In this document: positions 6,144-47,804 of the stretch, piece by piece
Layout: every line of letters begins with the position of its first letter
Position numbering within the stretch: position 1 is the first letter of the stretch
Source of the DNA: Gammaproteobacteria bacterium
GTDB lineage: Bacteria; Pseudomonadota; Gammaproteobacteria; Steroidobacterales; Foliamicaceae
Assembly: GCA_028821145.1 (NCBI GenBank)
Contig: JAPPHC010000042.1
Span: forward strand, 28,057 to 92,056
DNA: 64,000 nucleotides
Reading direction: 5' to 3'
The notes under the pieces: model-generated
Told to the model about the DNA's origin: nothing
Database searches by the model: none
Seen by the model: the letters and a program-made list of their open reading frames with translations, nothing else
Translations under genes and position numbers: made by a program

Positions 6144-6147
6144 GGCG

Positions 6148-7110
6148 CTAGTCCAGTGAGTCGAGAAACTTCTCGAGATCGGAGGTAAACAGGTCCGGGT
6201 CCTCCCACATTGGAAAGTGCCCGAACTGGGGATAGCTGATGACCGTCAATGGCGCTTGACTGAATCTTTCAATAGTAGCCTCAAGAGACTGATAAATAAC
6301 GGTATCCTGCTCGCACCATTGCAACAGCACGGGTACCGTCACCTTCTCCGCGTGCGCTCCCATGTCGGTGGTGCGGAACAGTTCGACATTGGATGCGATG
6401 TATTCCCTCTGCCGCTGCGCTGCCCCCGGCAAATTGTTGGCGTCGTAAATCATGTCGACCATTTCGTCAGGAGGCGAGAAGCCCGGCGGCGTTGTGTCCT
6501 CCAGGACCAGGCGCCACCAATACTTCGAGCGGTAATCCGGCAGGAAGCGACTGTGAAACCAACCCAGGGCGCGGATGCGCCAGTCCACTTTGCGGGTCTG
6601 GCTCGGCCGCTCGAGCGGCAGGACCGACAGCGCCATGGCCCGAACCCGGTCGGGGTAACGCGCGTAATAGTCCAGCGCAACGTTGACGCCGTTTGAGGTT
6701 GCAAGAATCGTAAAGGGCTCCAGGTCGAGGTGCGCAACCAGCCCGGCAACAATGTCGGCGGCCCGCGCCGTCGTCAGGATTCCCTTGGGGTCGGGTTCGG
6801 TGAAGCCGTACGGAGGCCAGTCCAGCCGGACGACCCGGAATCGGCCCTTCAGCCGGTCCGCCACCGGGCTCCATTCGTGCATATTCAGGATGCTGCCGTG
6901 GAGCATCAGGACGACCGGCCCGCGGCCTTCGATTCGAGCATGGACGTTGACGCCGTCGATATTCACGAAGGTTGAGGGCAGCGCCGCCCAGCGTGCCTTG
7001 ACGGTCTCGTAATCCGTGTCCCACCAGCCGATGCGCATGGACCCTACAAGCGCAACCAATAAGATTGCGATCGCGACAACGACGGAGATTTTGCGCTTGA
7101 ACAGGCTCAT
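6148..7110 (-). CDS. alpha/beta hydrolase (canonical Ser nucleophile)
   Basis: 'GPVVLMLHGSILNMHEWSPV', nucleophile elbow 'ATSNG', C-terminal 'FGHFPMWEDP'; N-terminal membrane segment. Confidence 0.88.
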   Translation of the reverse strand: MSLFKRKISVVVAIAILLVALVGSMRIGWWDTDYETVKARWAALPSTFVNIDGVNVHARIEGRGPVVLMLHGSILNMHEWSPVADRLKGRFRVVRLDWPPYGFTEPDPKGILTTARAADIVAGLVAHLDLEPFTILATSNGVNVALDYYARYPDRVRAMALSVLPLERPSQTRKVDWRIRALGWFHSRFLPDYRSKYWWRLVLEDTTPPGFSPPDEMVDMIYDANNLPGAAQRQREYIASNVELFRTTDMGAHAEKVTVPVLLQWCEQDTVIYQSLEATIERFSQAPLTVISYPQFGHFPMWEDPDLFTSDLEKFLDSLD

Positions 7111-8465
7111 ACCGTGATCACCGGATCGCCGATATCATGCAGCGGCGCCGCGCCCTCGGTCGTTATCAGCATCAGGTCCTCAATGTGCGCGGAACCGCCG
7201 ACACCCGTGTTCATGACCGGGCAATCGACGCTGAGGATCATGCTTTCCCGCAATGTCAGGTCCAGCTTCCCGTAGAAGCCCCCGGCGTCGCGGCCCGGCT
7301 CATCCGTGTGCATCAGCCCAACACTGTGCGGACCGATTCCGACAGCGACATCGAAGCCCCCTTTACGCACCGCTTCCTGCCCCAGGGCGACAATGTCGCT
7401 GTAGCGCATTCCGGGCCGCAATCGTTCGCGGATCGACTGCCACGCATGCGCAACCGCCTGCGCCGCCTTGCGCGCAGCGTGTACCGGTTCGCCGACAAAC
7501 ACGGTACGCGCATAGTCGCCGTGGTAGTGATGCGAGTGGCTTACACCGTCGATGAAGAATGCCTGCCCGTCCGAGATCACGCCGTCCGACAACTCGGAGG
7601 AGACCCGATCGACGTTCAGGAAGAGCGCGCGATTGCCGAGCCGGGCTGCCTCCACTTCGAACAGATGCTGCAGTTCGGCGTGACTGGCCCCTGCGCGTAC
7701 CGCGTGACCGACCGCGGTGACCGCATCGACGTTTGCGATCGCGGCGCGCCGCATCAACCGGATTTCCAGCGGAGACTTGACCAGCCGGATCCAGCGCAGG
7801 ATGTTATCGCCCGGCAAGACGTCGCCGGGATGGCCATGGCGTTCGCAGACCGCCTCGGTGACGACGTGATCGCAGGCGATGCGGCCTTGCCAGAGTCCCA
7901 TCTCCTTCATCGCGCGTACGAGGGCTGCTCCGGTGTCGGCGCTGGTCCCGCTTGCTGCCGTAACCGCATTGAGCGCCTGGCGGCGCCGCAGCTCGACAGA
8001 TGACAACGGCGCCTGTTTGCGGTCCGGAAATTCAGGCCCCAGCATGTCCGGCGGCAGCAGGGCTTCGCTTTGGGTATTGTCGTCCGCCTCCTGGTACAGG
8101 TAGACCTGAACGTCGTTCGCGAAGCCGCCGTCCACGTAGGTGTAATAGTAGATAAAGCGGGAGGCCACGAGGCCCGGTTTCTGCCGCGCGTCCCGTGACA
8201 ACAAGGCAAAAGTGGTCGGTGGTTGCCCCATACGCGTATTGCCCAATTGAGGCCAATATCCCAGCACGTGGAACACATTGACCGGCTCCCCGAGCACGAG
8301 GCCCTTCAGGTCGAATTCGTCCATGACCTCGAAGGCACGCTCCAGGTTCATCGGCCCCTGCTCGCGGAGCAGGCGCGTGAGCTCTGCGTCCTCGCGGAGG
8401 AGTTCGTCCCGGGCGGCTGTCTCTGATCCAGTCACTATTTCCCGCTTGCTAGACGCCTCTGGCAT
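7107..8465 (-). CDS. M24 family (Xaa-Pro aminopeptidase/creatinase fold) protein
   Basis: 'FFIDGVSHSHHYHGDYARTVFVGEPV', 'GIGPHSVGLMHTDEPGRD', 'HIEDLMLIT'; start set at MPEASSKREI. Confidence 0.85.
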   Translation of the reverse strand: MPEASSKREIVTGSETAARDELLREDAELTRLLREQGPMNLERAFEVMDEFDLKGLVLGEPVNVFHVLGYWPQLGNTRMGQPPTTFALLSRDARQKPGLVASRFIYYYTYVDGGFANDVQVYLYQEADDNTQSEALLPPDMLGPEFPDRKQAPLSSVELRRRQALNAVTAASGTSADTGAALVRAMKEMGLWQGRIACDHVVTEAVCERHGHPGDVLPGDNILRWIRLVKSPLEIRLMRRAAIANVDAVTAVGHAVRAGASHAELQHLFEVEAARLGNRALFLNVDRVSSELSDGVISDGQAFFIDGVSHSHHYHGDYARTVFVGEPVHAARKAAQAVAHAWQSIRERLRPGMRYSDIVALGQEAVRKGGFDVAVGIGPHSVGLMHTDEPGRDAGGFYGKLDLTLRESMILSVDCPVMNTGVGGSAHIEDLMLITTEGAAPLHDIGDPVITV

Positions 8466-8497: not shown

Positions 8498-9364
8498 GTG
8501 AACGACATTGAACGCCAGTTTGTCGCACTGCGCGAGGGGCAGTTGCATCTGCGGCGCCTTGAGGCGCAGGCCGAGGGTGCAAATCCGGCCGTGCCGGCCG
8601 TTTTGCTGCTACACCCGTCTCCGGCATCGTCGTGGTTCATGCAGGGCCTGATGGCCGAATTGCGAAAGGCCGGCTGCGACGCAACGCTTATCGCGCCCGA
8701 CACGCTCGGCAATGGCGACTCGGCGCCACCCGGCGTCGATCACCCGGACATCGCGTATTTCGCCGACAGCATGCGCCGCATGATCGACGAACTTGCGCTC
8801 GAACGCGTGGATCTGTACGGCTCCCACACCGGTGCGCGGATCGCCTGCGAGTTTGCCGCGGCCTACCCGGACCGGGTTCGACGGGTCGTGCTCGACGGCA
8901 TCATCGAGTATGACGACGACATGCGTAACGCCATCATCGAGAACTACGCGCCGCGCATCGAGCCGGATGAGTTCGGACGGCATTTCGTCTGGGCGTTCAA
9001 CTTCGTTCGCGACCAGGCGCTGCACTTTCCGTGGTTCATGCGCGACCCGGAGCACCGGCTCGCCGGCCCGGTGCCCCCGGCTGCGGTTCTCCACCGGGCC
9101 GCGCTCGACGTGCTGAAGGCGCTCGACACCTACGCGGACCCGTACATCGCGGCCTTCGAATACCGGGCCTATGAGCGCATGCCGCAGATCGAGGCGCCCG
9201 TGCTGCTCCTGAAGCCCGACAGCGAATTGCCGGTCCTTCAAGCCGCTGTCGCGAAGGCAGCGAGTCTGTTGCGTGATGGGCGTATCGCTACGGTACCCGG
9301 CGGTGACACGTCCAAAGCCGGGGCTATCGCTGACTTTCTGGCTGCCGTGCTGCGGAACGAATGA
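8498..9364 (+). CDS. alpha/beta hydrolase-fold protein with GSHTG nucleophile elbow
   Basis: 'PAVLLLHPSPASSWFMQGL', 'LYGSHTGARIACEFAAAYPDRV'; GTG start. Confidence 0.85.
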   Translation: MNDIERQFVALREGQLHLRRLEAQAEGANPAVPAVLLLHPSPASSWFMQGLMAELRKAGCDATLIAPDTLGNGDSAPPGVDHPDIAYFADSMRRMIDELALERVDLYGSHTGARIACEFAAAYPDRVRRVVLDGIIEYDDDMRNAIIENYAPRIEPDEFGRHFVWAFNFVRDQALHFPWFMRDPEHRLAGPVPPAAVLHRAALDVLKALDTYADPYIAAFEYRAYERMPQIEAPVLLLKPDSELPVLQAAVAKAASLLRDGRIATVPGGDTSKAGAIADFLAAVLRNE

Positions 9365-9447
9365 GTCAGTAATACGAGTACAGGACCGCAGCCCTCGTCA
9401 CGATAGTTGACGATCAGGCCGGCCGCTTCGAGGCGTGGGCCTGGCAC
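9365..9447 (-). pseudogene. possible N-terminal remnant of an alpha/beta hydrolase gene
   Basis: Minus-strand translation 'LEAAGLIVNYRDEGCGPVLVLL' resembles the first beta-strand region of alpha/beta hydrolases and stops at the 3' end of the convergent hydrolase gene. Confidence 0.4.
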
Positions 9448-9488
9448 CGTCCTCTACTGCAATGCGTCAAAGCAGTCCGATCGCAATC

Positions 9489-11879
9489 TCAGAAGTTGTA
9501 CACCGCACGCACGCCGAAGGTCCGCTTTCTTGCCAGCGAATAGCGGATTTCATTGGATCTCGCCACGGTGATCAGATCGTTGCCGATCACGGCGCTCGGC
9601 GGGCTGTCTTCCTCGAACAGGTTGGTGCCGAACGCTTCCACCGTCAGGGCGTCGGAACGAAGGCCCAGCCTCAGGTTGAAGATGTCCTGCGGCGCCACCC
9701 AGGCTTCATTGGTGTAATCGACGAAATACTTGCCCAGGTGGGCGTAATCGACCCGGGCGAACCAGTTGTAGCTGTCCGTGAGCGCGTCTTCGTAATCGGC
9801 GGACAGTGTCCACGTCCACTTCGAAGCCGACGGCAACCGGCTTCCGTCGCAGTTGTTGTCGCCTCGCACGTTCACGCCGTCGCCGCACACGAAATTCTTC
9901 ACCTCGGAATCCGCCAGACCCAGTGAACCGGACAGCGTCAGGTTCTCGGTTGGCGCGGCATCGAATTCGAACTCGAAGCCCTGCAGGTCCGCTTCGCCCG
10001 TGTTGACGAACACGGACGCCAGGTTGAGCGTCCCGTCCGGATTGGTGAACGGAATGGTGATCTGGTTCTGGCCATTGCGGTAGGGATCGAAATACACGGC
10101 CAGGCGCGATTGCAGACGGCCGCCCAGCCAGGTCGACTTCAGGCCTGCTTCGAAGTTGTCCAGTCGTTCCTCCTCGTAGGCAACCGAGGCCCCGAATTGC
10201 GCAAACTGGTCGAGGACTACCTGCGGCGAGCCCTGGAGGATTGCGTTGAAGCCGCCCGGGCGGTAACCGCGGGAGAACAGGACATAAACCATCGAACCCT
10301 CCGCGTACTGGTAATCCAGCGATACGCGCGGAGCGAAGCTCGTGAACTCGGCCTCCAGTGGCTCGCCTCCCGGGGGCTCCGGCGGGTTGCCCGTGGAATT
10401 GATCAACAACTGGCGCAGCAGTTCGTCCCTTTGATAGCGGGCGTCGACGCTCAGCGTCAGCTTCTCGTTGATGTCGTACTCGAGCCCGCCGAATATGGCC
10501 GGTGTGGTCGTTTCCGCCTTGGTGATACCGGCTGCAAACAGCGAGCCGAACACCGAAAGGCCATAAACCGATCCGCCCGGAGAGTAGGAGTCCAGGTAAC
10601 TGCCCCCCAGGGTCCAGCGCAGCCGCCGGTCCTGCGGCGAGCTCACGCGCAATTCCTGGCTCCAGTCGCGGAACCGGCTCTGCACGGCAAGCTGCCACCG
10701 ATTGAACGGCGGCGCGCCGGGAATGACGAAGGACAGCGGGTTGGGCACGTTGCGCCGGTCCCGGAAGTTCAGATCGATGATCGTCATGTCCTTGTCGGTG
10801 TGATAGGCGGTCAGCGCGCTGAACACGTATCCCGACTCGGTGTCGTAGTCGATGCGCAGCGATGCGTTTTCGGCCTCGCGGCCCAGACCCGGCTTGGGCC
10901 GGAAACTGGGGTCGAAAATGGTGGCCTGATCCACCGCGTCCACAAGGACGGCCCTCGCCTGCTCGTCCAGTGTGTAGTGGCCGGAAATATGACTGGCGGG
11001 AAGATCACCCGTATCCGGCAATTCGCCGCAGTAATAGCCATGCATCCGCCCGCCCAGATCGCAATTGAAATCGCCGGTTGAGCCCTTCAAGGCAGCCTGC
11101 GCCGGGGGGCCGTCATCGTGTTCCATGTACTGGAAGAACGCCTTCGCGGACAATCTTTCGTTTGGCCGAAACTGTGCCTGCACAACGAAGGATTCCGTCA
11201 GTTCGCCGCCCAGTTCAACGTCGGGATTGGCGAAATTCTTGTACTGGCCGCCCTTCTCATCGCGACTGGCGCTGACCCGCACCGCCAGACCATCCATGAT
11301 CGGTCCTTCCAGGGCGACCTGCACCAGGGAGGAATCAAAGCTGGCGGCCGACGCGGTAAGCCGGCCCTGGAACTCTTCGTCGTTGAGGCTCCGCGATACG
11401 TAATTGATGGCGCCGGACAGCACCGAACGGCCGAAGTAGGCCGATTGCGGGCCCTTCAATACCTCCACCCGTTCCATGTCCACCATGGCCGGAGCCTGAC
11501 CTCCCAGCAGGGGCGAACCGTCAAGAAACACCAGGCCCCCGGCCTGCTGCTCCCGATTCAAGGTGCCCAGGTAGAGGCCGCGGAAAACCAGGGAGCTGGC
11601 GGAGCGGTCATTGCGCCCGGACCCGCCGCCGACCTGCTTGACGTAGTGGAAGCCGGGAGTAAAGGACGCGATTTCGCCCATTTCCGTGAGGTTCATTTTC
11701 TCCAGCGTTGCCGCCGACATGGCGGAAATCGCCAACGGAGCCTCCATCAGGTTTTCCTCGACCTTGCGGGCTGTAACCACGATTTCCTCAAGCGCGGGTT
11801 CCTGTGCCGTAGATATTTGCGCAAACGCCGCAAAGGCCATGGCGCCGGCTGCGGCAGCCAGCCTGATTGACATTTTCAT
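9489..11879 (-). CDS. TonB-dependent receptor
   Basis: Signal peptide, 'ALEEIVVTARKVEENLMEAPLAISAMS', 'VEVLKGPQSAYFGRSVLSGAINYVSR', C-terminal 'RTFGVRAVYNF'. Confidence 0.93.
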   Translation of the reverse strand: MKMSIRLAAAAGAMAFAAFAQISTAQEPALEEIVVTARKVEENLMEAPLAISAMSAATLEKMNLTEMGEIASFTPGFHYVKQVGGGSGRNDRSASSLVFRGLYLGTLNREQQAGGLVFLDGSPLLGGQAPAMVDMERVEVLKGPQSAYFGRSVLSGAINYVSRSLNDEEFQGRLTASAASFDSSLVQVALEGPIMDGLAVRVSASRDEKGGQYKNFANPDVELGGELTESFVVQAQFRPNERLSAKAFFQYMEHDDGPPAQAALKGSTGDFNCDLGGRMHGYYCGELPDTGDLPASHISGHYTLDEQARAVLVDAVDQATIFDPSFRPKPGLGREAENASLRIDYDTESGYVFSALTAYHTDKDMTIIDLNFRDRRNVPNPLSFVIPGAPPFNRWQLAVQSRFRDWSQELRVSSPQDRRLRWTLGGSYLDSYSPGGSVYGLSVFGSLFAAGITKAETTTPAIFGGLEYDINEKLTLSVDARYQRDELLRQLLINSTGNPPEPPGGEPLEAEFTSFAPRVSLDYQYAEGSMVYVLFSRGYRPGGFNAILQGSPQVVLDQFAQFGASVAYEEERLDNFEAGLKSTWLGGRLQSRLAVYFDPYRNGQNQITIPFTNPDGTLNLASVFVNTGEADLQGFEFEFDAAPTENLTLSGSLGLADSEVKNFVCGDGVNVRGDNNCDGSRLPSASKWTWTLSADYEDALTDSYNWFARVDYAHLGKYFVDYTNEAWVAPQDIFNLRLGLRSDALTVEAFGTNLFEEDSPPSAVIGNDLITVARSNEIRYSLARKRTFGVRAVYNF

Positions 11880-35465: not shown

Positions 35466-36452
35466 ATGGGGAGTAGCGGGTTGTTTCACGTTATCGATAC
35501 CCGGCAGTTCGACCGGCCGATGCTCGACCGTCTGTGCCGACTGGCGACCCACGTCCGGACCCTGGCCAAATCGCGGGCCGGCGCGCAAAACCTGCAGTCG
35601 CTGGCGCCCAACCGGCGCGCGATGCTCTATTTCACGCAGCCTTCCACCCGGACCTTCCTCTCGTTCAACAGCGCCTGCCATATCCTCGGCATGCAGACCA
35701 GCGAAATCCGCAATCCGTCCATTTCCTCGGAGGTGAAGGGCGAGACCTTCGAAGACAGCATCCGCACCTTCAGTTCCTATGCGGACGTCATCATCATGCG
35801 CACCCCGGAAGGCGGAAAAGCCGCGCGGGCGGCCGAGCTCATGGACTCCATTCCGCGCCCGGTCCCGGTCATCAACGCCGGGAGCGGCCCCGACCAGCAC
35901 CCCACCCAGGCCCTGCTGGACATCTACACGCTGGAGCGAAGCTTCGAGAAGCGCGGCGGTATCGACGGCAGGACCATCGCCATGATGGGCGACCTGCGCC
36001 GCGGCAGGACCGTCCGTTCGCTCAGCTACCTGATGAAGAACTACAAGGACGTTCGCCTGCGTTTCGTCGCGCCGCCGGGGTTCGAGATCAAGCAGGACAT
36101 CCTCGATCATCTCGATGAGCACGGTGTGGAGTACGCAGCGACGAGCCGGCTGGATGACGTGCTGAACGACCTGGACGCTTTGTACGTGACGCGGCTGCAG
36201 GAAGAATACGACGAGCAGAACGAATCGGAGAGCGCCGATTACGCCGCCTACGCGATCGGCCCTGAACAGTTGCGGCGGTTTCCCTCCGACGCGATCATCA
36301 TGCATCCGCTGCCGCGCGGGCCGGAACTCGACCCCGGAATCGACAACGATCCGCGCGTCATGTACTGGCGCCAGGAACGAAACGGCATGTGGATGCGGGT
36401 CGCGCTTCTGGCGGCAATCTTCGACCTGGACGGCGACATAAATGTGAACTGA
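35466..36452 (+). CDS. pyrB: aspartate carbamoyltransferase-like, catalytic subunit
   Basis: 'MLYFTQPSTRTFLSF' carbamoyl-phosphate motif, 'ISSEVKGETFEDS', 'GSGPDQHPTQALLDIYTL', 'MMGDLRRGRTVRSLSYL', 'MHPLPRGPELDPGID'. Confidence 0.85.
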   Translation: MGSSGLFHVIDTRQFDRPMLDRLCRLATHVRTLAKSRAGAQNLQSLAPNRRAMLYFTQPSTRTFLSFNSACHILGMQTSEIRNPSISSEVKGETFEDSIRTFSSYADVIIMRTPEGGKAARAAELMDSIPRPVPVINAGSGPDQHPTQALLDIYTLERSFEKRGGIDGRTIAMMGDLRRGRTVRSLSYLMKNYKDVRLRFVAPPGFEIKQDILDHLDEHGVEYAATSRLDDVLNDLDALYVTRLQEEYDEQNESESADYAAYAIGPEQLRRFPSDAIIMHPLPRGPELDPGIDNDPRVMYWRQERNGMWMRVALLAAIFDLDGDINVN

Positions 36453-36454
36453 AA

Positions 36455-38848
36455 GTGATAAAGAAATTAACTATTTCATTTATCACTCTGATATCAATAT
36501 CTATTCTGATATCTTTCATCGCTTTTTTGGTGTTGCGCACCGGCAACATTCCGACCCGCGCGGGAACCGTTGACAAGTCGATTCCGCTGGGCGTGCTCGA
36601 TGCGCCCGTTACGGTCAAGCGGGACCGCTACGGGGTCCCGTACATCTACGCGCAGTCGCTGGCGGACGCGATCCGTGCGCAGGGATTCGTTACCGCGCAG
36701 GACCGGCTGACCCAGATGCTTCTGACCCGCGAAGCGGTCAATGGACGCCTGGCCGAGTGGGTCGGTCCTCCGGGAGAAGGCAACGACATCAGTGTGCGCG
36801 TGCTCGGAATCAGGCAACTGGCCCACCGGTTTGCGACCGGCCTCAAGTCGCCCAGCCGGGAAATGCACGAGTGGTATCTCGAGGGCGTCAACGCCTATAT
36901 CGGTACGCAGGAGCATGAGTTTCCGCTCGCAATGCGCATTTCCGGGACGTCGCCGGCGCCCTATACGCTTGAGGACATCTGCGCGCATTACCTCCTCCAG
37001 GCGTACGACCTTACCGAGAACTGGCGCTCCGAGTGGCTGGCCCAGCGTCTTGTGGATCAACTGGGCCGCGAAAAGGCCGCACAGATCTCCCTGGTCAGCG
37101 TAAATCCGGACGACGGCAGCCGATGGGCGTCGGATTACGCGCTCGCGCCGCGGGAACCGCTGTTGTCGATGCGCGAACCGCCGCAAATCGAGGCCGCTCC
37201 GGTAGGCGGCTCCAACAGTTGGGCGACGTCCGGGCGACGGTCGCTGCGGGGAGCGCCGATACTGGCCAACGATCCGCACCTCGACGCCCGCAGGCTTCCC
37301 GGCATCTGGTATCCGCTGGGCCTGATTACGCCCGAATGGCGAGCCGTGGGCGTGGCCGCGGCGGGATGGCCCGGCCTGGCCGTGGGGCGGTCCGATTCCA
37401 TCGCCTGGGGCGTCACCAACTCCGCCGCCGACACGGCGGACCTGTTCATCGAGCGGGACGATCCCGAAAAAGATGGCCATTACCTGGAAGGCGAACTGTC
37501 CTTGCCCTACGAGGTGGTCAGCGAGACGGTGCGTGTACGGGACCCGGGTTCTCTCGACGGCATTCGCGAACGCACGTTCGACGTCCGACGCAGCCGGCGC
37601 GGGCCGGTGGTATCCGACACGCTGATCGAGGATGGGCACGGCCGCTCCCTGTCGCTGCGCTGGAGCGTGGCCGAGAACGTCGGCGGCCAGGTGGGCGTCG
37701 ATCGATTGATGCTGGCGAAGAATGTCACCGAAGCCGGCGAGGCGATCCGCGACATCGTGAGCGCCCTCAACTACAACGTGGCCGACACCGGGGGAAATAT
37801 CGCCCACTTCACCTCGGGGTATATTCCCGTCCGGCTGAGGGGAGACGGCGCAATCCCGCTGCCGGTCACGGGCGGGGAGGACAACTGGACCGGGTTCGTT
37901 CCCTTTGAAAAAGCGCCCTCGTCGATGAATCCGCAAAGAGGCTGGGTGGGCAACGCCAATCACCGCACAGTCAGCGGGCGCTTCGACGGCATCTGGAGCA
38001 GCTACTCGGCCCCTTCCTGGCGTTACCGCCGCATACTGGAACTGTTGGACAACGAACGCGTGTTCTCCGCCGAAGATCACTGGTCGGCGATCACCGATAC
38101 CCGGAACACGCTGGCCCGCGACCTGGTGCCGCTGTTCCTGCCGGCCCTGGAGGCCGCTCCCGAAACGCGGGAGGCCGCGGAAATGCTCGGCAACTGGGAT
38201 TATCGCGACGACGCCGGGAAAGCCGCACCTGCGCTGTTCCAATTGATGATCCGCGCGCTCGTAACCCGCATCTTCTCCGACGAATTGGACATGCTGGTCC
38301 ACAGCTACCAGGGTTCTCCATATTTCTGGCAGGAACGCGTTCATTCGATGCTGAACTCCGGCAAATCGGACTGGTTCGACGACATCAATACTCCGCATAC
38401 GGAGGGAATGGACGACCTGATCCGGAGCGCGGCGCTGGATGCCTGGCGGCAACTTGAAATGACTCTGGGCGGAAATCCGCGCGACTGGCGCTGGGGCGAA
38501 ATCAGCCGGCTCAGGATTTCCAGCCCGGTCCCGACAGGAAACCGGCTCCTGAATCGTTTCCTCGGCGGGGGAGATTTTCCGCGCACCGGGTCGCCGGAGA
38601 CCCTGTGGGGGTCGTACGGCAGCCCGTCCTACGGCGCCTGGGGGATCGATTCCCTGCGCTTCGTCGCCGATCTCGGCGACCCGGACAAGGTGCTGGCAGT
38701 CATTCCCGGCGGCGTGAGCGGGCGCCTGTTCGATCCGCACCTCAATGACCAGCTGCCGTTGTGGCTGTCCGGCGAAATCAACTACTGGTGGTTCTCCGAC
38801 GAGGCCATCAACGCCAATGCGCGCAAGAAAGTCACGCTCTCGCCGTGA
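36455..38848 (+). CDS. penicillin acylase family protein (Ntn hydrolase)
   Basis: N-terminal anchor; 'VTVKRDRYGVPYIYAQSLADAIRAQGFVTAQDRL'; predicted autoprocessing at 'GG|SNSWATSGRRS'; 'GAPILANDPHL'; GTG start. Confidence 0.92.
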   Translation: MIKKLTISFITLISISILISFIAFLVLRTGNIPTRAGTVDKSIPLGVLDAPVTVKRDRYGVPYIYAQSLADAIRAQGFVTAQDRLTQMLLTREAVNGRLAEWVGPPGEGNDISVRVLGIRQLAHRFATGLKSPSREMHEWYLEGVNAYIGTQEHEFPLAMRISGTSPAPYTLEDICAHYLLQAYDLTENWRSEWLAQRLVDQLGREKAAQISLVSVNPDDGSRWASDYALAPREPLLSMREPPQIEAAPVGGSNSWATSGRRSLRGAPILANDPHLDARRLPGIWYPLGLITPEWRAVGVAAAGWPGLAVGRSDSIAWGVTNSAADTADLFIERDDPEKDGHYLEGELSLPYEVVSETVRVRDPGSLDGIRERTFDVRRSRRGPVVSDTLIEDGHGRSLSLRWSVAENVGGQVGVDRLMLAKNVTEAGEAIRDIVSALNYNVADTGGNIAHFTSGYIPVRLRGDGAIPLPVTGGEDNWTGFVPFEKAPSSMNPQRGWVGNANHRTVSGRFDGIWSSYSAPSWRYRRILELLDNERVFSAEDHWSAITDTRNTLARDLVPLFLPALEAAPETREAAEMLGNWDYRDDAGKAAPALFQLMIRALVTRIFSDELDMLVHSYQGSPYFWQERVHSMLNSGKSDWFDDINTPHTEGMDDLIRSAALDAWRQLEMTLGGNPRDWRWGEISRLRISSPVPTGNRLLNRFLGGGDFPRTGSPETLWGSYGSPSYGAWGIDSLRFVADLGDPDKVLAVIPGGVSGRLFDPHLNDQLPLWLSGEINYWWFSDEAINANARKKVTLSP

Positions 38849-38871: not shown

Positions 38872-41271
38872 ATGCTGAAAAAAATCGGAATCGCGCTCAT
38901 CGCCCTGCTGCTGGTGATCTTCCTGGCCACCGTCGCCGGCATCGCCTGGCTCAGCGAGAGCAACATCCCGGACCGTGACCGGGACATCGGCGACGCGGCG
39001 GTCCTTGCGATGCTGAACGACGAAGTGCGCGTGAAGAGGGACCGGCAGGGTGTCCCCTATATCTATGCGCAGACGCTGGCCGACGCGTTGCGCGTGCAGG
39101 GTTTCGTCACGGCCCAGGACCGACTGTCGCAGATGCTGCTGACCCGCGAGCTGATTCACGGACGGCTGTCCGAGCAGATCGGGGAGGCCGGGCTGCGCAG
39201 CGATACGCTGGTCCGGATCATGGGCTTAAGCCGCATGGGATCCGTATGGGCGGCGCAACTCGAATCGCCCAGCCGCGAACTGCACGAATGGTTCCTCGAG
39301 GGGGTTAACGCCTACATCGCGACGCAGGCCGATGAATTTCCGCTGGCCGTGCGGATTTCCGGGGAACCGCCGGCGCCATTTACCCTAGACGACTTTACGA
39401 CGCAGTATCTGTTCCTGGCGTTCAACAGCACGGGAAACTGGCGAACGGAGGTGCTGAGCCAGGCGCTGGTCGACCACCTGGGCGCCGGAAAGGCCGCGGA
39501 AATCTCCATGCTGACGGTCAATCCCGACGACGAGAGCGAGTGGGCTTCGGACTACAGCCTGGCGGAAAACCGTATGCCGGAGAGCGATCCCGCCAGTTTC
39601 CCCGAGCTACCCGAGCCGTCGGACGGCTCCAACAGTTGGGCCACGTCTGCCCGGCGTTCGGCGGGCGGCGCACCGATCGTGGCCAACGACCCGCACATCG
39701 ACGTGCGCCGCCTGCCCAGCATCTGGCATCCGGTGGCTCTGATCACGCCCGAATGGCGGGCAGTGGGCACCGCCGGCGCGGGCCTGCCGGGAATGGGTGT
39801 AGGGCGCTCCAGCGATGTTGCCTGGGGCATAACCAACGCCTTTTCCGATGTCGCCGACCTGTTCATCGAACGGGATGATCCCGACCGGCCGGGTCACTAC
39901 CTGGAAGGCGAACAGTCGGTTCCGTACCGGATCGTGGAGGAGACCATCCGCATACGCGACCGCAACGCCCCGGGCGGCTACCGCGAGCATCCCTTGACGG
40001 TTCGCCATACACGGCGCGGACCGGTCATATCCGATCACGGCCTGACCGGAGGCTACGGCCGCGTATATTCGCTGCGCTGGAGCATGGCCGAGAATATCGG
40101 AACGCAGGTGGGAATCGAACGCGTCATGCTGGCGCGCGATACGTTTGAAGCAGGCGAAATCATCGGCTTGATCAACGCCCCGTACAACTACACGGTAGGC
40201 GACACGAAGGGGAACATTGCGCACTACACGGCCGGCCGCGTGCCGGCGCGGCGCCGGGGCGACGGAGCGCTGCCCCTTCCCGTCGTGGACACCGAGGACG
40301 ACTGGCCGGCTTTCGTGCCCTTTGCCCGGGCGCCCACGTACATAAACCCGCCGAAGGGATGGGTCGGCAACGCCAACCACCGCACCGTGAGCGGCGATTT
40401 TGACGGACACTGGACCAGCTACGTGGCCTCCTCCTGGCGCTACCGGCGGATGCAGGAACTATTCGACGGCGACGGCACGCTATCGGATGCCGACCACTGG
40501 TCGGCGATCAACGACACGCTCAACCCCATGGCCCGGGGCCTCGTCCCGGTCATGGTCCGGGTATTGGAAGCACAGCCCGAAACGCGGGCGGCCGCCGCGA
40601 TGCTGGCCGACTGGAATTTCCACGACGAACCGGAGCTGGCGGCGCCGGCCCTTTTCCAGGCGATGATGGCCAGCCTGGTGCGGCGCATTTTCGAGGACGA
40701 ACTGGGCGAGGTGTTGGCGCGGCAATACGCGCGCGACATCTACTACTGGCAGGAGCGCGTGTACCGGATGCTGCTGGCGGGCGAGTGGGAATGGTTCGAC
40801 GATACGCGCACGGAGGCGGTGGAAAGTCGCGACGACCTGCTGCGCGCCGCGGCGCTCGACGCCTGGACTGAATTGCAGGCGCGCCTCGGACCCGACCCGA
40901 CCGCCTGGCGCTGGGGAGACCTGAGCCGGTTCCGGTTCAGCAACCCATGGGTGCCCGGAGAACTGGCCGATCGACTACTGGGCGGCGGGGACTATCCCGG
41001 CCGCGGGTCCGGAGAAACGCTGGGGCGGGCGCGCTTTCCGGGATTTGGAAACTACGATCCGCGGATAATCGATTCACTGCGTTTCGTGGCCGACCTCGGC
41101 GATCCAGACAAGGTTCTGGCGGTCATACCCGGCGGCGTCAGCGGGCGGCTGTTCGATCCGCATATGAACGACCAACTTCCCGCATGGGTGGCCGGCGATA
41201 TCGGCTACTGGTGGTTTTCCGACGCCGCCATCGCCGCCGACACGCAACAGGAAATGACATTCAGGCCGTGA
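38872..41271 (+). CDS. penicillin acylase family protein (Ntn hydrolase), paralog of 36455-38848
   Basis: 'VRVKRDRQGVPYIYAQTLADALRVQGFVTAQDRLSQ', 'DG|SNSWATSARRSAGGAPIVANDPHI'. Confidence 0.92.
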   Translation: MLKKIGIALIALLLVIFLATVAGIAWLSESNIPDRDRDIGDAAVLAMLNDEVRVKRDRQGVPYIYAQTLADALRVQGFVTAQDRLSQMLLTRELIHGRLSEQIGEAGLRSDTLVRIMGLSRMGSVWAAQLESPSRELHEWFLEGVNAYIATQADEFPLAVRISGEPPAPFTLDDFTTQYLFLAFNSTGNWRTEVLSQALVDHLGAGKAAEISMLTVNPDDESEWASDYSLAENRMPESDPASFPELPEPSDGSNSWATSARRSAGGAPIVANDPHIDVRRLPSIWHPVALITPEWRAVGTAGAGLPGMGVGRSSDVAWGITNAFSDVADLFIERDDPDRPGHYLEGEQSVPYRIVEETIRIRDRNAPGGYREHPLTVRHTRRGPVISDHGLTGGYGRVYSLRWSMAENIGTQVGIERVMLARDTFEAGEIIGLINAPYNYTVGDTKGNIAHYTAGRVPARRRGDGALPLPVVDTEDDWPAFVPFARAPTYINPPKGWVGNANHRTVSGDFDGHWTSYVASSWRYRRMQELFDGDGTLSDADHWSAINDTLNPMARGLVPVMVRVLEAQPETRAAAAMLADWNFHDEPELAAPALFQAMMASLVRRIFEDELGEVLARQYARDIYYWQERVYRMLLAGEWEWFDDTRTEAVESRDDLLRAAALDAWTELQARLGPDPTAWRWGDLSRFRFSNPWVPGELADRLLGGGDYPGRGSGETLGRARFPGFGNYDPRIIDSLRFVADLGDPDKVLAVIPGGVSGRLFDPHMNDQLPAWVAGDIGYWWFSDAAIAADTQQEMTFRP

Positions 41272-43910
41272 GGCGTTTTCCGGCACTTGCCGCCAGCGTC
41301 GCCTGCCTGTTGGCCGCGGCCTCGCTCGCGACTGCGCAGGATGCCGCCGGCGAACTGCCCTGCGACACCGGCCTGTACGAAATCAGCGCCGACCATGAAG
41401 GCGCGCGCGCCAACTCCTGCCGGGTCTTCAATCCGCGCGGGGTGATCCTGACCATCGACCCGGAGGACCCGCCGCCGATCAATCCCAGCCCCTGGTTCGG
41501 GTTCCACGTACGCGCGAAGAACGCGAACGAGCAGGGGACCGTGGTCGTCACGTTGCGTTACTCCACCAGCCGGCACCGCTACGCGCCCAGGACCAGCATT
41601 GACGGCCGCGAGTGGACGCCGCTGCCGGAGCGTCAATGGCTGGCCCACGAGGACGGCCGCGCGACCATGGAGCTCAAACCCGGCACGGACGGGCTGTTCG
41701 TTTCGGCGCAGGAGAACCTCGGACTCGGCTTCTACTCAGAATGGCGCCGCAGCATGGCCGAGCGCTTCGACGGGCTTCAGTGGCGAAGCATCGGCGAATC
41801 CAGGGGCGGGCGCACGATATTCGCGGCCGAGACCGCTCCCGGCGCGCCCAACTACCTGCTCTTCATCGGCCGTCAGCACCCGCCCGAGATCCCGGGCGCC
41901 CTGATGTTCAAGGCCTTCGCCGAACGGCTGCTTGAGGACCGCTCAGGAGCCTGCGACGACCCGTCCTCAGCGAAGTGCGCCTTCTATTCCGGGCACAGCC
42001 TTGTTTTCATACCCAACCTCAATCCCGACGGCGTCGCCCTGGGTCATTGGCGGCACAACCTCGACGGGACCGACCTGAACCGCGACTGGGGGACTTTCGC
42101 GCAGCCCGAAACGCAGGCCGTCCGGCGCCTGACTGACTCGCTGGAAGAAGGCGGAAGTGCAATCGCAGTCATGCTGGATTTCCACTCGACCTGGCGAAAC
42201 GTGTTCTACGTCCCGACCCTCAAGGACGCGACACGCCCGCCCGCGTTCGCCACCCGCTGGCTCCGGCTGGCGCGCGCGAGCGGTTCCGCCTACGCGTTCG
42301 AACGGGCGCCGCGGTCCTCGCAGGACACGACGATCGCCAAGAACTACTTCTATCGCCGCTTCGGCGTCCCGGCGATCACGGTCGAGACGGGCGACGACAC
42401 GCCCCGGGGCGAGATCGCGTCCACCGCCCGCGTCCTGGCGGACGCGCTGGTTGCGGTCATGGGCGGCCGGAACGGCCCGTCGGGACGCCGCCGCGGCGCG
42501 CTGTGCCCGGATTTCTTCTGCTACATGGCGGAGGCGAACAGGGCCTCGCTGGTGATGCTGAGCGAGGAAGGGCTGGTAAACCACCGGCAGGCGCAGGCAA
42601 TAGCCGCGGCCATGATGCAGGTGAGAGCCGAACAGGAAGCCGAAGGCGCGGAGCGGACGGCCAACTACCTGCCGTACGAGGAGCGCCTGGTCGAACTGGC
42701 CGGCGAAGAAGCGGCCGACCTTCACCTGGGCCGGTCCCGCCAGGACCTTCACGGCATAGTGCGCCGCATGCTCATACGCGACCAGTGGCTTGCGCTGGCC
42801 GCCGGCGCCCTCAAGGCCCGGTCCGCCTTGCTGGACCTCGCGGAGCAGGAAGCTTCCACGCCCATACCCGCATATACGCACGGCGTACAGGCGCAGCCCA
42901 CCACGCTGGGCCACTACCTGCTGGCGTTCTCGGCCAACCTACAGCGCGACCTTGAGCGCTACCGGGAAGGCTACGCCCGGATGAATTCAAGCCCGCTGGG
43001 CGCGGCCGCGCTCGGAACCTCCGGATTCGCATTGAACCGCGAACGGCTTGCGCGATTGCTGGGGTTCGCCGCGCCGGTGGACAACAGTTACGACGCCAAC
43101 TTCGTTTCTTCCGGCGACCTGCGCAGGGAACTCGCCAACATTCTCGAGTTGTCCGCCATTCCCATCGGCCAACTGGCGGAAAACCTCCACACGCAGTACC
43201 ACAACCCCAGGCCGTGGATCCTGCTCGATCAGTCCGCCGTGAGCATCAGCACGATCATGCCGCAGAAGCGCAACCCGCGCCCGCTGGATCGCGTGCGCAG
43301 CCAGGCAAGCAAGGTGCTCGGCGGCGCGCAAACTCAAATGCTGCTGGCGCACAACACCAACACCGGCATGCACGACTACCGCGACATCGCGCCGATCATG
43401 GCACTGGCGGAGGATGCGCGGCTGATGTACCGGCGCTACGAGCGGCTGATCGGACTGCTTCGCGTAGACCGCGAGCATGCCCTGGACGAGTTGCAGCGGG
43501 GCTTTTCGACCATGACGGAGGTGGCCGACATGCTGGTCCGGGAGGCCGGCCTGCCGTTCCGCACCGCGCACCGCTTTGCCTCGGCCCTCACCGACTACGG
43601 GCGCGCGAACCGACTTCGGCCGGAATCGCTGAGCGAGGACGAATTGAAGGCGATCTACCGCGAGACGGTGGGCGGGCGCCTGCCCGTATCCATCGAAGAT
43701 CTCCGTCGGGCGATGGACCCGGTGGCGATGCTGGGGGACCGCAAAGGCCTGGGGGGACCGCAAGCCGGAGAAGTCCGGCGAATGCTGAATACCCACCGCG
43801 AATCGCTCGAACAGAACCGGGCCTGGCTGGGCCGCGCCAACGCAGATCTGCTGGCGGCATCGCTGGAATTGCATCAGGGGTTCGCCGCACTGGCGCCACC
43901 CAACGAGTGA
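41268..43910 (+). CDS. secreted fusion protein: M14 zinc carboxypeptidase domain plus argininosuccinate lyase/fumarase-superfamily lyase domain
   Basis: GTG start overlapping the previous stop (GTGA); signal peptide 'MRRFPALAASVACLLAAASLATAQ'; M14: 'IGRQHPPEIPG' (HxxE), 'LNRDWGTF', 'MLDFHSTW', 'AITVETGDDTP'; lyase: 'LGTSGFALNRERLA', 'VSISTIMPQKRNPRPLDRVRSQASKVLG'; continuous ORF through both domains. Confidence 0.88.
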   Translation: MRRFPALAASVACLLAAASLATAQDAAGELPCDTGLYEISADHEGARANSCRVFNPRGVILTIDPEDPPPINPSPWFGFHVRAKNANEQGTVVVTLRYSTSRHRYAPRTSIDGREWTPLPERQWLAHEDGRATMELKPGTDGLFVSAQENLGLGFYSEWRRSMAERFDGLQWRSIGESRGGRTIFAAETAPGAPNYLLFIGRQHPPEIPGALMFKAFAERLLEDRSGACDDPSSAKCAFYSGHSLVFIPNLNPDGVALGHWRHNLDGTDLNRDWGTFAQPETQAVRRLTDSLEEGGSAIAVMLDFHSTWRNVFYVPTLKDATRPPAFATRWLRLARASGSAYAFERAPRSSQDTTIAKNYFYRRFGVPAITVETGDDTPRGEIASTARVLADALVAVMGGRNGPSGRRRGALCPDFFCYMAEANRASLVMLSEEGLVNHRQAQAIAAAMMQVRAEQEAEGAERTANYLPYEERLVELAGEEAADLHLGRSRQDLHGIVRRMLIRDQWLALAAGALKARSALLDLAEQEASTPIPAYTHGVQAQPTTLGHYLLAFSANLQRDLERYREGYARMNSSPLGAAALGTSGFALNRERLARLLGFAAPVDNSYDANFVSSGDLRRELANILELSAIPIGQLAENLHTQYHNPRPWILLDQSAVSISTIMPQKRNPRPLDRVRSQASKVLGGAQTQMLLAHNTNTGMHDYRDIAPIMALAEDARLMYRRYERLIGLLRVDREHALDELQRGFSTMTEVADMLVREAGLPFRTAHRFASALTDYGRANRLRPESLSEDELKAIYRETVGGRLPVSIEDLRRAMDPVAMLGDRKGLGGPQAGEVRRMLNTHRESLEQNRAWLGRANADLLAASLELHQGFAALAPPNE

Positions 43911-43940: not shown

Positions 43941-43968
43941 TCGCCGGTCTTTGTGAGGAGTGGGGCTG

Positions 43969-46959
43969 ATGCGGAAACGCAATTACTTCGCCGTCGCGGC
44001 GGCATTTCCAGTGTTCTTTGCCGGCAGCATCGCCGGATGGGCCCAGGACGCCGGGGAAGGCCAGGCCGAAGAACAGGAAATTGAAGAAATCGTCGTAACC
44101 GGCAGCCACATCAAGGGCGCCAACATCACGGGCGCATTGCCCGTATCCGTGATCAGTTCGGAGGAGATCGAGGCCATGGGCGTCGATTCGGGCGACGAAT
44201 TGCTGCAGTTCATACCCGAGCAGGGACAGAACTTCTTCAGCGAAGCCGAGAACATCAGCGGCGGCGTGAACTCCGCCCGCGGAGATATCGGAGCCTTCAA
44301 CCTGCGCAGCCTGGGCACGGGCAACACCCTGGTGCTGCTCAACGGGCGGCGGATGGTCAACGCCGCAAGCTACCAGACCGAGGAGGTCGGCGGCAGCTTC
44401 GTGCCCGTCAATACGGTCAACTCCAATACCCTGCCGGTGTACGGCGTCGACCGCGTCGAGATCCTCAAGGACGGCGCGTCGGCCCTGTACGGCGCCGACG
44501 CCGTGGCCGGCGTCGTCAATCACGTGCTCAGGACCGACCGGGAAGGCATACGGGTCTATGCCCGTTACGGCTGGTACGACGAATTGAGCCGCAAGACCAA
44601 CCGACTTTCTTTGGAATGGGGCGATTTCTTCAACCAGGGCCGCACGCACATCGGTATAACCGCGGATTACTACCTGCGCGACCGCGTCAGCGCCCACGAA
44701 GACGAGCGCTGGGCGGACGCCGATTTCCGCCGACGCATTCCGGCGGACTCCCCGTGGGCGGGCGACACCCGTTTCCGCAATACCAGCGCCAATTCTCTTT
44801 ATGGGCAGTTCGACGTGCGCGTGAGCGCCAGCAGCGTGGGTTTACGCAACACGCTGACCGACAGCGCCGGAGAATTCGAGACTTTTCCGGCCGGCCACGA
44901 GGACTGCGACTGGGACCTGGGCTACGGCACCTGCGGGGCCATCGACGGCAACGGCACCTACCGCTACAACTTTAACGCGACCCGCGATCTTTCCTCCGAC
45001 CTCAAGCGCGGCAACGTGTTCGTGTTCGTCAATCACGATTTCGGCAACGGCCTGGAGAGCTTCTCGGAACTGCACTACTACGCCTCCGACACCCACATGT
45101 TCCGCCATGCCTCGGCGCCGTTCAGCTCGGTCAAGCTGAGGGTGGGGCCGCAGAACTACTACAACCCCTTCGGCCCCTGCGGCTCGCCCAACCGCCTCCC
45201 TGAATCCGTGATTCCGCGCGTTCCCTGCGAGGGCCTGGAACTGGAGATCGACAACTACCGGTTCGCCCAGGTGCCGCGGATCGTCGAGAACGACGGCAGC
45301 GTCGTGCGCGTGCTCCAGGGCCTGCGGGGCCAGGCCGGCCGCTGGGACTGGGAAGGCGCGCTGCTCTGGTCGCGCGCGGAGCGGGAGGACCTGACCCGCA
45401 ACCGCGTTTCCAATCTGCTGATCGCGGAGGCCCTGTTCGATCCGACTCCCAACGCGTACAACCCGTTTAGCGGCGGCGTGGACAGCAACATCGAACGCGC
45501 GCTGGTAGATGTCTACAGAAACAACGAGATGACGCTGCTCCTTTCGGACTTCAAGGTCTCCACGAACGAGCTGTTCCGGCTTCCCTGGGGATCGGCGGGC
45601 GGTCTTGCCGGCGTGGAATTCCGCCGCGAGACCTTTGAAGACGATCGCGACCCGAGGCTGGACGGCACCATCGTGTTTACCGACTACCAGGGCGATACCT
45701 ATCCCTACGTCTCCGACGTGGTCAATTCCAGCCCCACGCCCGACGGTTCGGGCGACCGGAACGTAACTTCACTGTTTACCGAACTGCAATTGCCGCTGAT
45801 GAACAACATCGACGTGCAGCTTGCCGCGCGTTACGAGAATTTCTCCGATGTCGGAAGCACGGTGGTGGGCAAAGTTGCCGCAGGCTGGCAGATTTCGCCG
45901 ACGCTTCTCCTGCGCGCGTCCTGGTCGGAAGCATTCCGGGCCCCCAACCTGGTAACGATCAACGAGGAAATCGTTGCGCGGCAGAACACCCGCAACGACT
46001 ATGCCTGCATCTATGCGGCCGAGAATGGCGGCGATCCCGAACAGGACACACTGGATTGCCGCAACAGCACCCAGCGGATCGCGCAGGGAAGCTCGCTGCT
46101 GGAACCCGAGCGCTCCGATAACTATTCGATCGGCATCGCAGTCCAGCCCATGGACACGCTGACGCTCACGCTGGACATGTGGTCCATCAAGAAGGAAGAC
46201 ACGATCGGCCTGCTGGGCGAAGAGAACCACACCGTGCTCGACCTGCTGATGCGCCTGAGAAACGGACCCGGCAACTGCGGCGGCGAATTCAACCCGGCCG
46301 TGGTGCGCGAAACGGAAGTCGCCGATGACGAGGCGGCGATCTACCGGGCGGCGGGCATCTGTCCTGGCGGCCTGATCCGCTACATCGACGACAAGTACGT
46401 CAACCTGGATACGCGCACGCTCCGCGGCTGGGACGTAAGCCTCCGCTATGCGCTCGAAACGCGGGTGGGCGATTTCAACCTGACCTACCTGGCTTCTTTC
46501 CTGACCAAGTTCGACCAGGTGCCGGGCGGCCAGGCCGCCGAACTCGTTGCCGCCAAGGAAGAAGGCCTGATTCCGGCGAGCATTCCCGTAGCCGGCTTCG
46601 CGGACCTGCTGCAGAAGGACGGCAACCAGAAGGCCCGCCACACGCTGTTTCTCAGTTGGCGGCGGGACCCGTTGCGCGTCGCCCTTTCAGGCCGCAATAT
46701 CGGGAACTTCTACCAGAACTCGCTGACCCTGAATGACGGGCAGTTGTACTGGATTCCGTCCGTCACAACCTGGAACGCCACCATCGACTACAACTGGGAG
46801 CTGGCCGACAGGGACTGGCGGCTGCGGCTGGGCGTCAACAACGTGTTCGACAAGCGGGCGCCGCTGGCGGACCGATTCTTCGGTTACTTCGCCGACGCGC
46901 ACCGCGACTTCGGCCGCAACTATTACCTGCAGCTGCGCGTAACGCAGGACAACGACTAG
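43969..46959 (+). CDS. TonB-dependent receptor
   Basis: 'EIEEIVVTGSHIKGANITGALPVSVISSEEIEAMG', 'LRSLGTGNTLVLLNGRRMVN', 'VDRVEILKDGASALYGADAVAGVVNHVLR'. Confidence 0.94.
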   Translation: MRKRNYFAVAAAFPVFFAGSIAGWAQDAGEGQAEEQEIEEIVVTGSHIKGANITGALPVSVISSEEIEAMGVDSGDELLQFIPEQGQNFFSEAENISGGVNSARGDIGAFNLRSLGTGNTLVLLNGRRMVNAASYQTEEVGGSFVPVNTVNSNTLPVYGVDRVEILKDGASALYGADAVAGVVNHVLRTDREGIRVYARYGWYDELSRKTNRLSLEWGDFFNQGRTHIGITADYYLRDRVSAHEDERWADADFRRRIPADSPWAGDTRFRNTSANSLYGQFDVRVSASSVGLRNTLTDSAGEFETFPAGHEDCDWDLGYGTCGAIDGNGTYRYNFNATRDLSSDLKRGNVFVFVNHDFGNGLESFSELHYYASDTHMFRHASAPFSSVKLRVGPQNYYNPFGPCGSPNRLPESVIPRVPCEGLELEIDNYRFAQVPRIVENDGSVVRVLQGLRGQAGRWDWEGALLWSRAEREDLTRNRVSNLLIAEALFDPTPNAYNPFSGGVDSNIERALVDVYRNNEMTLLLSDFKVSTNELFRLPWGSAGGLAGVEFRRETFEDDRDPRLDGTIVFTDYQGDTYPYVSDVVNSSPTPDGSGDRNVTSLFTELQLPLMNNIDVQLAARYENFSDVGSTVVGKVAAGWQISPTLLLRASWSEAFRAPNLVTINEEIVARQNTRNDYACIYAAENGGDPEQDTLDCRNSTQRIAQGSSLLEPERSDNYSIGIAVQPMDTLTLTLDMWSIKKEDTIGLLGEENHTVLDLLMRLRNGPGNCGGEFNPAVVRETEVADDEAAIYRAAGICPGGLIRYIDDKYVNLDTRTLRGWDVSLRYALETRVGDFNLTYLASFLTKFDQVPGGQAAELVAAKEEGLIPASIPVAGFADLLQKDGNQKARHTLFLSWRRDPLRVALSGRNIGNFYQNSLTLNDGQLYWIPSVTTWNATIDYNWELADRDWRLRLGVNNVFDKRAPLADRFFGYFADAHRDFGRNYYLQLRVTQDND

Positions 46960-47804
46960 GCGCCGGCGGCGCGGATAGCGCCCGCCACAAGGTCCACGAA
47001 GTCCGCTTCAGTGCGGACGTGCTGCACGTCCCGTGCGGGCACCGTGTAGCCGTGCTCACTGGCGATGGCGGCATACAGAGGCCGCCGGTGGGCGATCAGG
47101 CGCGGGAAGGCCCACAGCGTGAAATCGTCGGGCGAGGCCTTTTCGATCTCGTCGAGATTCCGTTCCTTCAGGAAATCAGGCAACGAACGCTCGAGAAACC
47201 CGGGCGAGTAATACATGGGCTTGGGCGCCTTGCGGGCCCGTTCCACCAGCTTTTCCTCATCCTCGGTCGATGCCTTGAGGTACAGAATCACGGTGTTGTC
47301 TACAAGAGTCTCAAGCGCTCCCGCGTCGTCCAGTTCGCAAATGCTGCCACCGGCGTCATTCACGAAGTGCATGTAGCCGTAGATACGCTCGGCCTTCTCG
47401 ATGAACGACGCCACGTCGCGCATCGCCCGGGCTTCCGCGTCACGGTGCAGCTCCTGGCGCCGCCGGAACTCCTTCAGCGGCAGCCCGCCGAGATCGGGAT
47501 TGCCCAGCTTGCCCAGGAAGGTGGAGATTGGCCTGAGGTTGTGTACGGTGATGTTGCTTTCGATGTATATGGAATCGCTGCGTAGCAGGTCGCGAAGAAA
47601 GGGCACTTCCATCGCGCGCAGCTTGATGTTGTCGAGTATCGGCTCGCGCAGATACTGGGTGCCGATGCGGTAGTCGCCGGAATAGATGAACCAGCGGGTC
47701 GCGGGCAGGCGGTTGGCGAGCACCGTCTTGCCCACGCCCGACATGCCCATCAGCGTGACGGACTTGCGCGGCGCGTTTCTGAACTCTTCGGCCGACATTC
47801 GCAT
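46956..47804 (-). CDS. P-loop ATPase/kinase-like protein
   Basis: 'KSVTLMGMSGVGKTVLANRLP' Walker A; no closer family recognised. Confidence 0.65.
   Translation of the reverse strand: MRMSAEEFRNAPRKSVTLMGMSGVGKTVLANRLPATRWFIYSGDYRIGTQYLREPILDNIKLRAMEVPFLRDLLRSDSIYIESNITVHNLRPISTFLGKLGNPDLGGLPLKEFRRRQELHRDAEARAMRDVASFIEKAERIYGYMHFVNDAGGSICELDDAGALETLVDNTVILYLKASTEDEEKLVERARKAPKPMYYSPGFLERSLPDFLKERNLDEIEKASPDDFTLWAFPRLIAHRRPLYAAIASEHGYTVPARDVQHVRTEADFVDLVAGAIRAAGA

Follow-up and report, generated by a model that had tools for sequence, protein, structure and literature searches.

An apparently exported M14 carboxypeptidase–argininosuccinate lyase superfamily fusion in one gammaproteobacterial genus, and the lyase clade to which it belongs

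Introduction

Does a single gene in this gammaproteobacterial genome encode two enzymes in one exported protein, and if so, what might they do together outside the cytoplasm? The question is raised by one long open-reading frame in the window (the whole 64,000-nucleotide stretch of contig JAPPHC010000042.1 analysed here), in which a signal-like N-terminus, an M14 carboxypeptidase and a lyase of the argininosuccinate lyase (ASL) superfamily follow one another in frame.

Results and discussion

A carboxypeptidase and a lyase in one open-reading frame

The gene (Table 1) starts with a GTG codon, ends with TGA and encodes 880 amino acids with no internal stop; this GTG and the stop codon of the upstream acylase gene share four bases (GTGA), an arrangement suggestive of translational coupling. 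The protein begins with VRRFPALAASVACLLAAASLATA followed by Q, where an RR n-region, a 12-residue h-region (KD hydropathy 2.34) and an A-x-A motif indicate apparent export by way of a Sec signal; here, as for the related lyases below, export was judged by eye and hydropathy only. Three Pfam domains matched above their gathering scores (hmmscan), Peptidase_M14 (PF00246, 3.3e-10) in the N-terminal part together with Lyase_1 (PF00206, 1.8e-28) and ASL_C2 (PF14698, 1.9e-11). The M14 motifs lie at 41877–41888 (HPPE), 42075–42092 (LNRDWG), 42177–42191 (DFHST) and 42381–42398 (VETGDD), the first recognisable lyase residues at 42504 and the lyase signature VSISTIMPQKRNPRPLD at 43239–43289. An AlphaFold model of the whole protein consisted of two bodies and a low-confidence linker (mean pLDDT 81, pTM 0.57), and the M14 half modelled alone reached a pLDDT of 91.6. 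Open-reading frame, Pfam matches and motifs, with the signal peptide judged from sequence features, agree with the sequence-only reading of this stretch, which had described an uninterrupted frame with a signal peptide, a complete M14 motif set and a lyase domain; that the lyase part might fail to match the superfamily by HMM, one of the findings it had named as refuting, is excluded by the Lyase_1 and ASL_C2 scores.

Table 1 Features of the fusion gene and its neighbours (positions in the window).
Feature	Position	Strand	Evidence
Second penicillin acylase gene, 58% identical to the first	36389..38848	+	PF01804, 577 bits; synteny
First penicillin acylase (Ntn amide hydrolase) gene, overlaps fusion start by 4 bp	38872..41271	+	PF01804, 549 bits
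Fusion gene, apparently exported M14 carboxypeptidase–ASL-superfamily lyase	41268..43910	+	880 codons; open-reading frame, translation, full-length homologues in six other genomes of the genus
Apparent Sec signal peptide, residues 1–23 (VRRFPALAASVACLLAAASLATA)	41268..41336	+	sequence features, hydropathy; signal-like N-termini in other fusions
N-terminal beta domain, CCP type, about residues 32–150	41361..41717	+	alignment to bacterial CCPs 4a37/3l2n/4b6z from near their N-termini; AlphaFold model
M14 catalytic domain, residues 153–400	41724..42467	+	Pfam PF00246; homologue conservation; model pLDDT 91.6; CCP fold match
Linker, residues 401–412, low model confidence	42468..42503	+	pLDDT < 50 at 401–411
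ASL-superfamily lyase domain, residues 413–876	42504..43895	+	Pfam PF00206/PF14698; alignment with E. coli ArgH and EDDS lyase; EDDS lyase fold match
TonB-dependent outer-membrane receptor gene, 49 bp downstream of fusion	43960..46959	+	PF00593/PF07715

Distribution and conservation of the fusion

Full-length fusions were found in seven of the nine genomes of the genus (the window genome, G001, G002, G003, G004, G006 and G007), the six others sharing 73–96% identity with the window protein. Both domains are under purifying selection, with dN/dS against the window sequence of 0.12–0.22 in the M14 part and 0.13–0.19 in the lyase part. Of the two remaining genomes, G005 encodes the M14 domain alone, with its own stop and a TonB gene directly after it, the lyase half being absent (locus L033, G005:C30, ~8934–10177), and neither M14 nor lyase was found in G008. 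Since the most distant member, G004, has the fusion, the simpler account is that G005 has lost the lyase, and the retention of M14 without it shows that the lyase is dispensable there. Synonymous divergence between the window gene and those of G002, G006 and G007 was unequal, ~0.35 in the M14 part and ~0.9 in the lyase part, as if the halves had different histories (recombination within the gene).

Outside the genus no fusion was found among 396 genomes of the order, 369 of the class and 399 of the phylum (>1,100 in all, the samples overlapping slightly), a contig search with the fusion protein as single query returned matches in the genus only, and a plasmid collection yielded stand-alone exported lyase relatives and no fusion. 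We found no M14–ASL fusion described in the open literature, which is weak evidence as the coverage of journals is incomplete; open-literature searches, likewise incomplete in coverage, for a periplasmic ASL with a TonB receptor, iminodisuccinate lyase, an L-Arg-D-Asp dipeptidase or a DadA–M14 cluster returned nothing relevant. The bin names of relatives' metagenome-assembled genomes suggest that the window bacterium and its genus are probably sponge-associated.

The carboxypeptidase half

The M14 metallocarboxypeptidase site is complete, with zinc ligands H204, E207 and H306, residues R262, N271 and R272 for the substrate carboxylate and catalytic E373, all invariant in 34 homologues. An N-terminal beta domain and a CCP fold, with a profile match over residues 20–350 to 4a37, 3l2n and 4b6z, place it in the M14D/CCP subfamily. 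It resembles the bacterial CCPs (PaCCP 4a37, BcCCP 4b6z, 3l2n) and CCP5, the last solved with glutamate-peptide transition-state analogues, in joining an N-terminal beta domain to an M14 domain with the full catalytic set (fold matches to 4b6z, E 5.6e-24, and CCP5, E 2.5e-20), but differs from them in being apparently exported and lyase-fused, in a lysine at a 255-like position, and in sharing only 15–21% identity. This lysine, K358, lies 15 residues before E373, is nearly invariant in the 34 homologues and stands at the spacing of CPA residue 255, an assignment made by sequence spacing and not by superposition; the aligned residue of P. aeruginosa CCP is Cys. In carboxypeptidase O, specificity for acidic C-termini accompanies a basic residue at the CPA-255 position (PMC9925722). 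Judged from fold and K358 only, the M14 half would probably cleave an acidic C-terminal residue.

The lyase half compared with EDDS lyase and ArgH

The Pfam domain, the fold and a signature containing S661, K667 and N669 together assign the second half to the ASL/fumarase superfamily (Lyase_1). Alignment with E. coli ArgH and EDDS lyase shows that the catalytic Ser (S661), the Lys and Asn of MPQKxN and the Thr-His pair are present, within the motifs GRSRQD (R491, Q492), YTH (T537, H538) and ISTIMPQKRNPR (S661, K667, N669, R671). The likeness to EDDS lyase guessed from the sequence alone held, the enzyme of Chelativorans sp. BNC1 (PDB 6g3d-6g3i) being the closest solved lyase both by sequence (9.7e-60) and by fold (6g3e/6g3d, TM 0.82–0.84 by target).

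The reaction of EDDS lyase connects fumarate with N-substituted L-aspartates, and R112, N113, Q159, N288, D290 and Y320 lie 4–6 Å from its substrate (PMC12363623). The two lyases share about 30% identity and are alike at the Ser/Lys/Asn and R112 positions, but N113, Q159 and D290 are replaced by Gln, His and Arg in the fusion, which hence lacks the substrate-side set of EDDS lyase; the latter also has no M14 domain and falls outside the exported clade described below. The Arg in question, R671, occupies the position of Asp290 and of the corresponding ArgH Asp, a charge swap beside the substrate from which the leaving group seems more likely to be acidic than basic. ArgH (E. coli ArgH, delta-crystallin) shares the Lyase_1 and ASL_C2 domains and the YTH and MPQK motifs, but its GRSRND and NPDALE read GRSRQD and NPRPLD in the fusion lyase, from which the ArgH N-terminal segment (WGGRF..., D-I-x-G-S) is absent.

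A clade of apparently exported lyases

In a maximum-likelihood tree a single branch, supported at 100/99, set 18 exported-clade sequences apart from ArgH, EDDS lyase and a cytosolic sister clade; the deep branches are long and the placement of the sister groups is unsure, which does not affect the unity of the 18-sequence set. Stand-alone lyases in other families of the order share 44–61% identity with the fusion lyase domain, and a signal-like N-terminus was read in ten of them, the start of one more (G243) being not settled. More distant relatives, at about 38% identity, occur in Cupriavidus metallidurans, Agrobacterium fabrum, Caballeronia and Paracoccus, and signal-like starts were also seen in the lyases with enough N-terminus (A. 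fabrum, C. metallidurans, G1130, G948, G990 and G855). Such N-termini are a feature of the fusions and the stand-alone clade lyases and are absent from ArgH and the cytosolic sister clade. The stand-alone members, often annotated 'argininosuccinate lyase', span gamma-, beta- and alphaproteobacteria. Those of A. fabrum (WP_173993825.1) and C. metallidurans CH34 share with the fusion lyase the clade, the signal-like N-terminus, the Q at the N113 position and MPQKRNP, but have no M14 domain, YTN in place of YTH and no evident catabolic cluster around them.

By these sequence comparisons the fusion lyase is a member of an apparently exported ASL-superfamily clade, which does not include ArgH, and is not a relocated cytosolic ArgH; since the stand-alone lyases of the clade are apparently exported too, export would have preceded fusion. 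The sequence-only reading had taken lyases of this superfamily to be normally stand-alone and cytosolic, and would have given up its proposal had homologues always been split with a cytosolic lyase. Outside the genus the two domains are indeed split and the lyase stands alone, but the split lyase too has an apparent signal peptide, which leaves that refuter half true and the premise of a cytosolic lyase incomplete.

Two individual relatives deserve mention. The G342 lyase (L080:9202–10719) has altered motifs (GRSTID, YTL) and is possibly a non-enzymatic descendant, and the closest stand-alone lyase, at 61%, from G023 (L032:13912–15335), is split over two frames by a frameshift in either the gene or the assembly. 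A separate cytosolic lyase clade (L081–L085), about 31–33% identical, is clustered with a PIG-L family protein and a sodium:solute symporter.

Gene neighbourhood

Two penicillin-acylase genes lie upstream of the fusion in six of the seven loci and a TonB receptor gene lies downstream, also in six of seven; the G003 locus (L035, G003:C15) has fusion and TonB receptor with both upstream acylase genes missing. A 282-residue protein with a weak AAA match (46956–47804, − strand) is kept near the TonB gene in the genus. Relatives have receptors of the same family as the window's TonB receptor next to their stand-alone M14 and lyase genes. In six relatives (L070–L075; G231, G068, G060, G197, G209 and G153), clusters with an exported lyase contain a DASS dicarboxylate symporter in all six cases (293 bits against a cut-off of 198.6 in the one protein tested), and ECF sigma/FecR (FecI/FecR-type) regulators, a TonB receptor, an amidohydrolase and M14 in five of six each, no M14 being seen in a further 9 kb at the sixth (G197, L114). 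As lyase, TonB receptor and secreted M14 were already clustered in relatives, the fusion joins genes that travelled together. The symporter is what would be expected if a dicarboxylate were released outside the inner membrane, although it is not specific to the lyase, being present in two M14 clusters with no nearby lyase (L124, L131). A homologue with 44% identity is present elsewhere in the genome in the fusion genus; none was found in the window genome, which is incomplete. The genus has its two penicillin-acylase-type enzymes in place of the relatives' amidohydrolase.

Stand-alone M14 genes lie directly beside a DadA-like D-amino-acid dehydrogenase in twelve loci (L040, L041, L042, L115, L116, L119–L123, L125 and L129), often with a LysR regulator, a TonB receptor related to that of the window and an Amidohydro_3 protein (best NCBIfam match, PRK09061). 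These loci of secreted CCP-type M14 and dehydrogenase appear to be an uncharacterised catabolic cluster for D-amino-acid compounds. At the G023 locus two gamma-glutamyltransferases precede the lyase, and a TonB receptor and an M19 dipeptidase are close by. Taken as a whole, the neighbourhood genes fit an extracytoplasmic scavenging route for amide-linked, acidic, partly D-configured amino-acid compounds.

Proposed function and alternative explanations

On balance we lean towards the fusion being a bifunctional enzyme for scavenging in the periplasm, which would cut an acidic residue from a C-terminus and release fumarate from an N-substituted aspartate whose leaving group is acidic; its export, its activity, the order of its steps and its substrate are all inferences. 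In such a route an amide- and acid-rich compound would pass the outer membrane by way of the TonB receptor and lose an N-acyl group to the two penicillin-acylase-type hydrolases, after which the CCP-type M14 domain would take off a C-terminal, probably acidic, residue, exposing an N-(1,2-dicarboxyethyl) unit. From this N-(1,2-dicarboxyethyl)amine (an N-substituted L-aspartate) the lyase domain would beta-eliminate fumarate, the leaving group probably being negatively charged, and fumarate and the amine or amino acid would then cross the inner membrane by uptake. By analogy with other enzymes of the superfamily the protein would be a homotetramer in which three subunits contribute to each active site and four M14 domains surround a lyase core. 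The change of RSRND to RSRQD in the fusion lyase and the absence of the lyase from G005 count against this proposal.

That the fusion is a sequencing or assembly artefact joining two genes has a negligible chance: the window genome is an incomplete draft (66%), but the same fusion stands in seven separately assembled genomes, among them the single-contig genome G004, under purifying selection visible at the codon level. Seven separate assemblies and a dN/dS of 0.12–0.22 in both domains mean that it is neither chance nor assembly error, and the frame open in all seven excludes the frameshift or stop between the domains that the sequence-only reading had considered fatal. It is also very improbable that the protein is the organism's argininosuccinate lyase joined by accident to a peptidase. 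The argH family TIGR00838 is its best NCBIfam match, but at 229.6 bits this is below the equivalog cut-off of 279.5, the fusion lyase has no ArgH N-terminal region and belongs to a well-supported clade apart from ArgH, and the genome carries a separate ArgH (G000:C68) with canonical GRSRND and GSS-MPQK. Argininosuccinate, one of the substrates suggested from the sequence alone, is unlikely, given that the fusion lyase lacks both the N-terminal region and the substrate-side residues of ArgH and that a separate ArgH is encoded in the genome.

Two further explanations keep the protein as it is and alter its chemistry. The lyase might be active with another leaving group, ammonia from Asp released by the M14 half (aspartase-like) or a thiol from a 2-succinyl-thiol, periplasmic fumarate being still the product; we consider this unlikely, if worth keeping in view. 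An acid-specific M14 could pass Asp straight to the lyase, and with the XcbC and XcbD families also among the NCBIfam matches, the chemistry in this part of the superfamily goes beyond that of ArgH. Gamma-glutamyltransferase and dipeptidase, as beside the G023 lyase, are the usual set for dismantling glutathione-type conjugates. But gamma-glutamyltransferase occurs at two loci only (L032, L127), DASS and amidohydrolase at more, and in sequence and fold the lyase is nearest to C-N lyases for N-substituted aspartates and far from aspartase. Less probable again is a non-catalytic lyase domain, an exported tetramerisation or ligand-binding module for the carboxypeptidase. The delta-crystallins are non-enzymatic recruits of the superfamily, G005 does without the lyase, G342 has clearly altered sites, and the Gln and Arg at N113 and Asp290 of EDDS lyase would suit such a role; against it, the catalytic Ser, Lys, Asn and Thr-His are found in every fusion and most of the stand-alone clade, the lyase part is itself constrained at the codon level, and stand-alone exported lyases have no M14 partner to tetramerise.

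Returning to the bifunctional scavenging enzyme, a wider version is more tentative, and we hold it as possible but doubtful: that a widespread, unrecognised extracytoplasmic ASL branch in Proteobacteria splits fumarate from natural aminopolycarboxylates or N-succinyl-type D-amino-acid conjugates, and that in one sponge-associated genus it was joined to a CCP-type carboxypeptidase, so that one periplasmic protein would take apart some class of marine compounds.

Novelty and implications

Both domains come from known superfamilies, so the enzyme is not of a new kind; we found neither the M14–ASL pairing nor the exported clade described in the open literature. The fusion implies that peptidase and lyase act on one compound, gives a single protein in which their joint action could be assayed, and suggests extracytoplasmic removal of fumarate-type acids from scavenged molecules in some bacteria. 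A periplasmic step that releases fumarate, linked to a TonB receptor, a dicarboxylate symporter, a D-amino-acid dehydrogenase and amidohydrolases, points to a so far unrecorded way in which N-substituted acidic amino acids could be used. C-N lyases of the ASL superfamily are sought as biocatalysts for N-substituted aspartates (PMC12363623).

This apparently exported clade cannot supply the arginine enzyme, so current annotation is wrong for those of its genes that carry the argininosuccinate lyase label. The lyases of A. fabrum plasmid pAt2788a (L143:5920–7419, WP_173993825.1), Caballeronia (L145:5953–7422) and C. metallidurans CH34 (L144, about 6001–7500), exported-clade loci with GRSSQD and YTN, are annotated 'argininosuccinate lyase' or are unannotated, and wide misannotation is probable.
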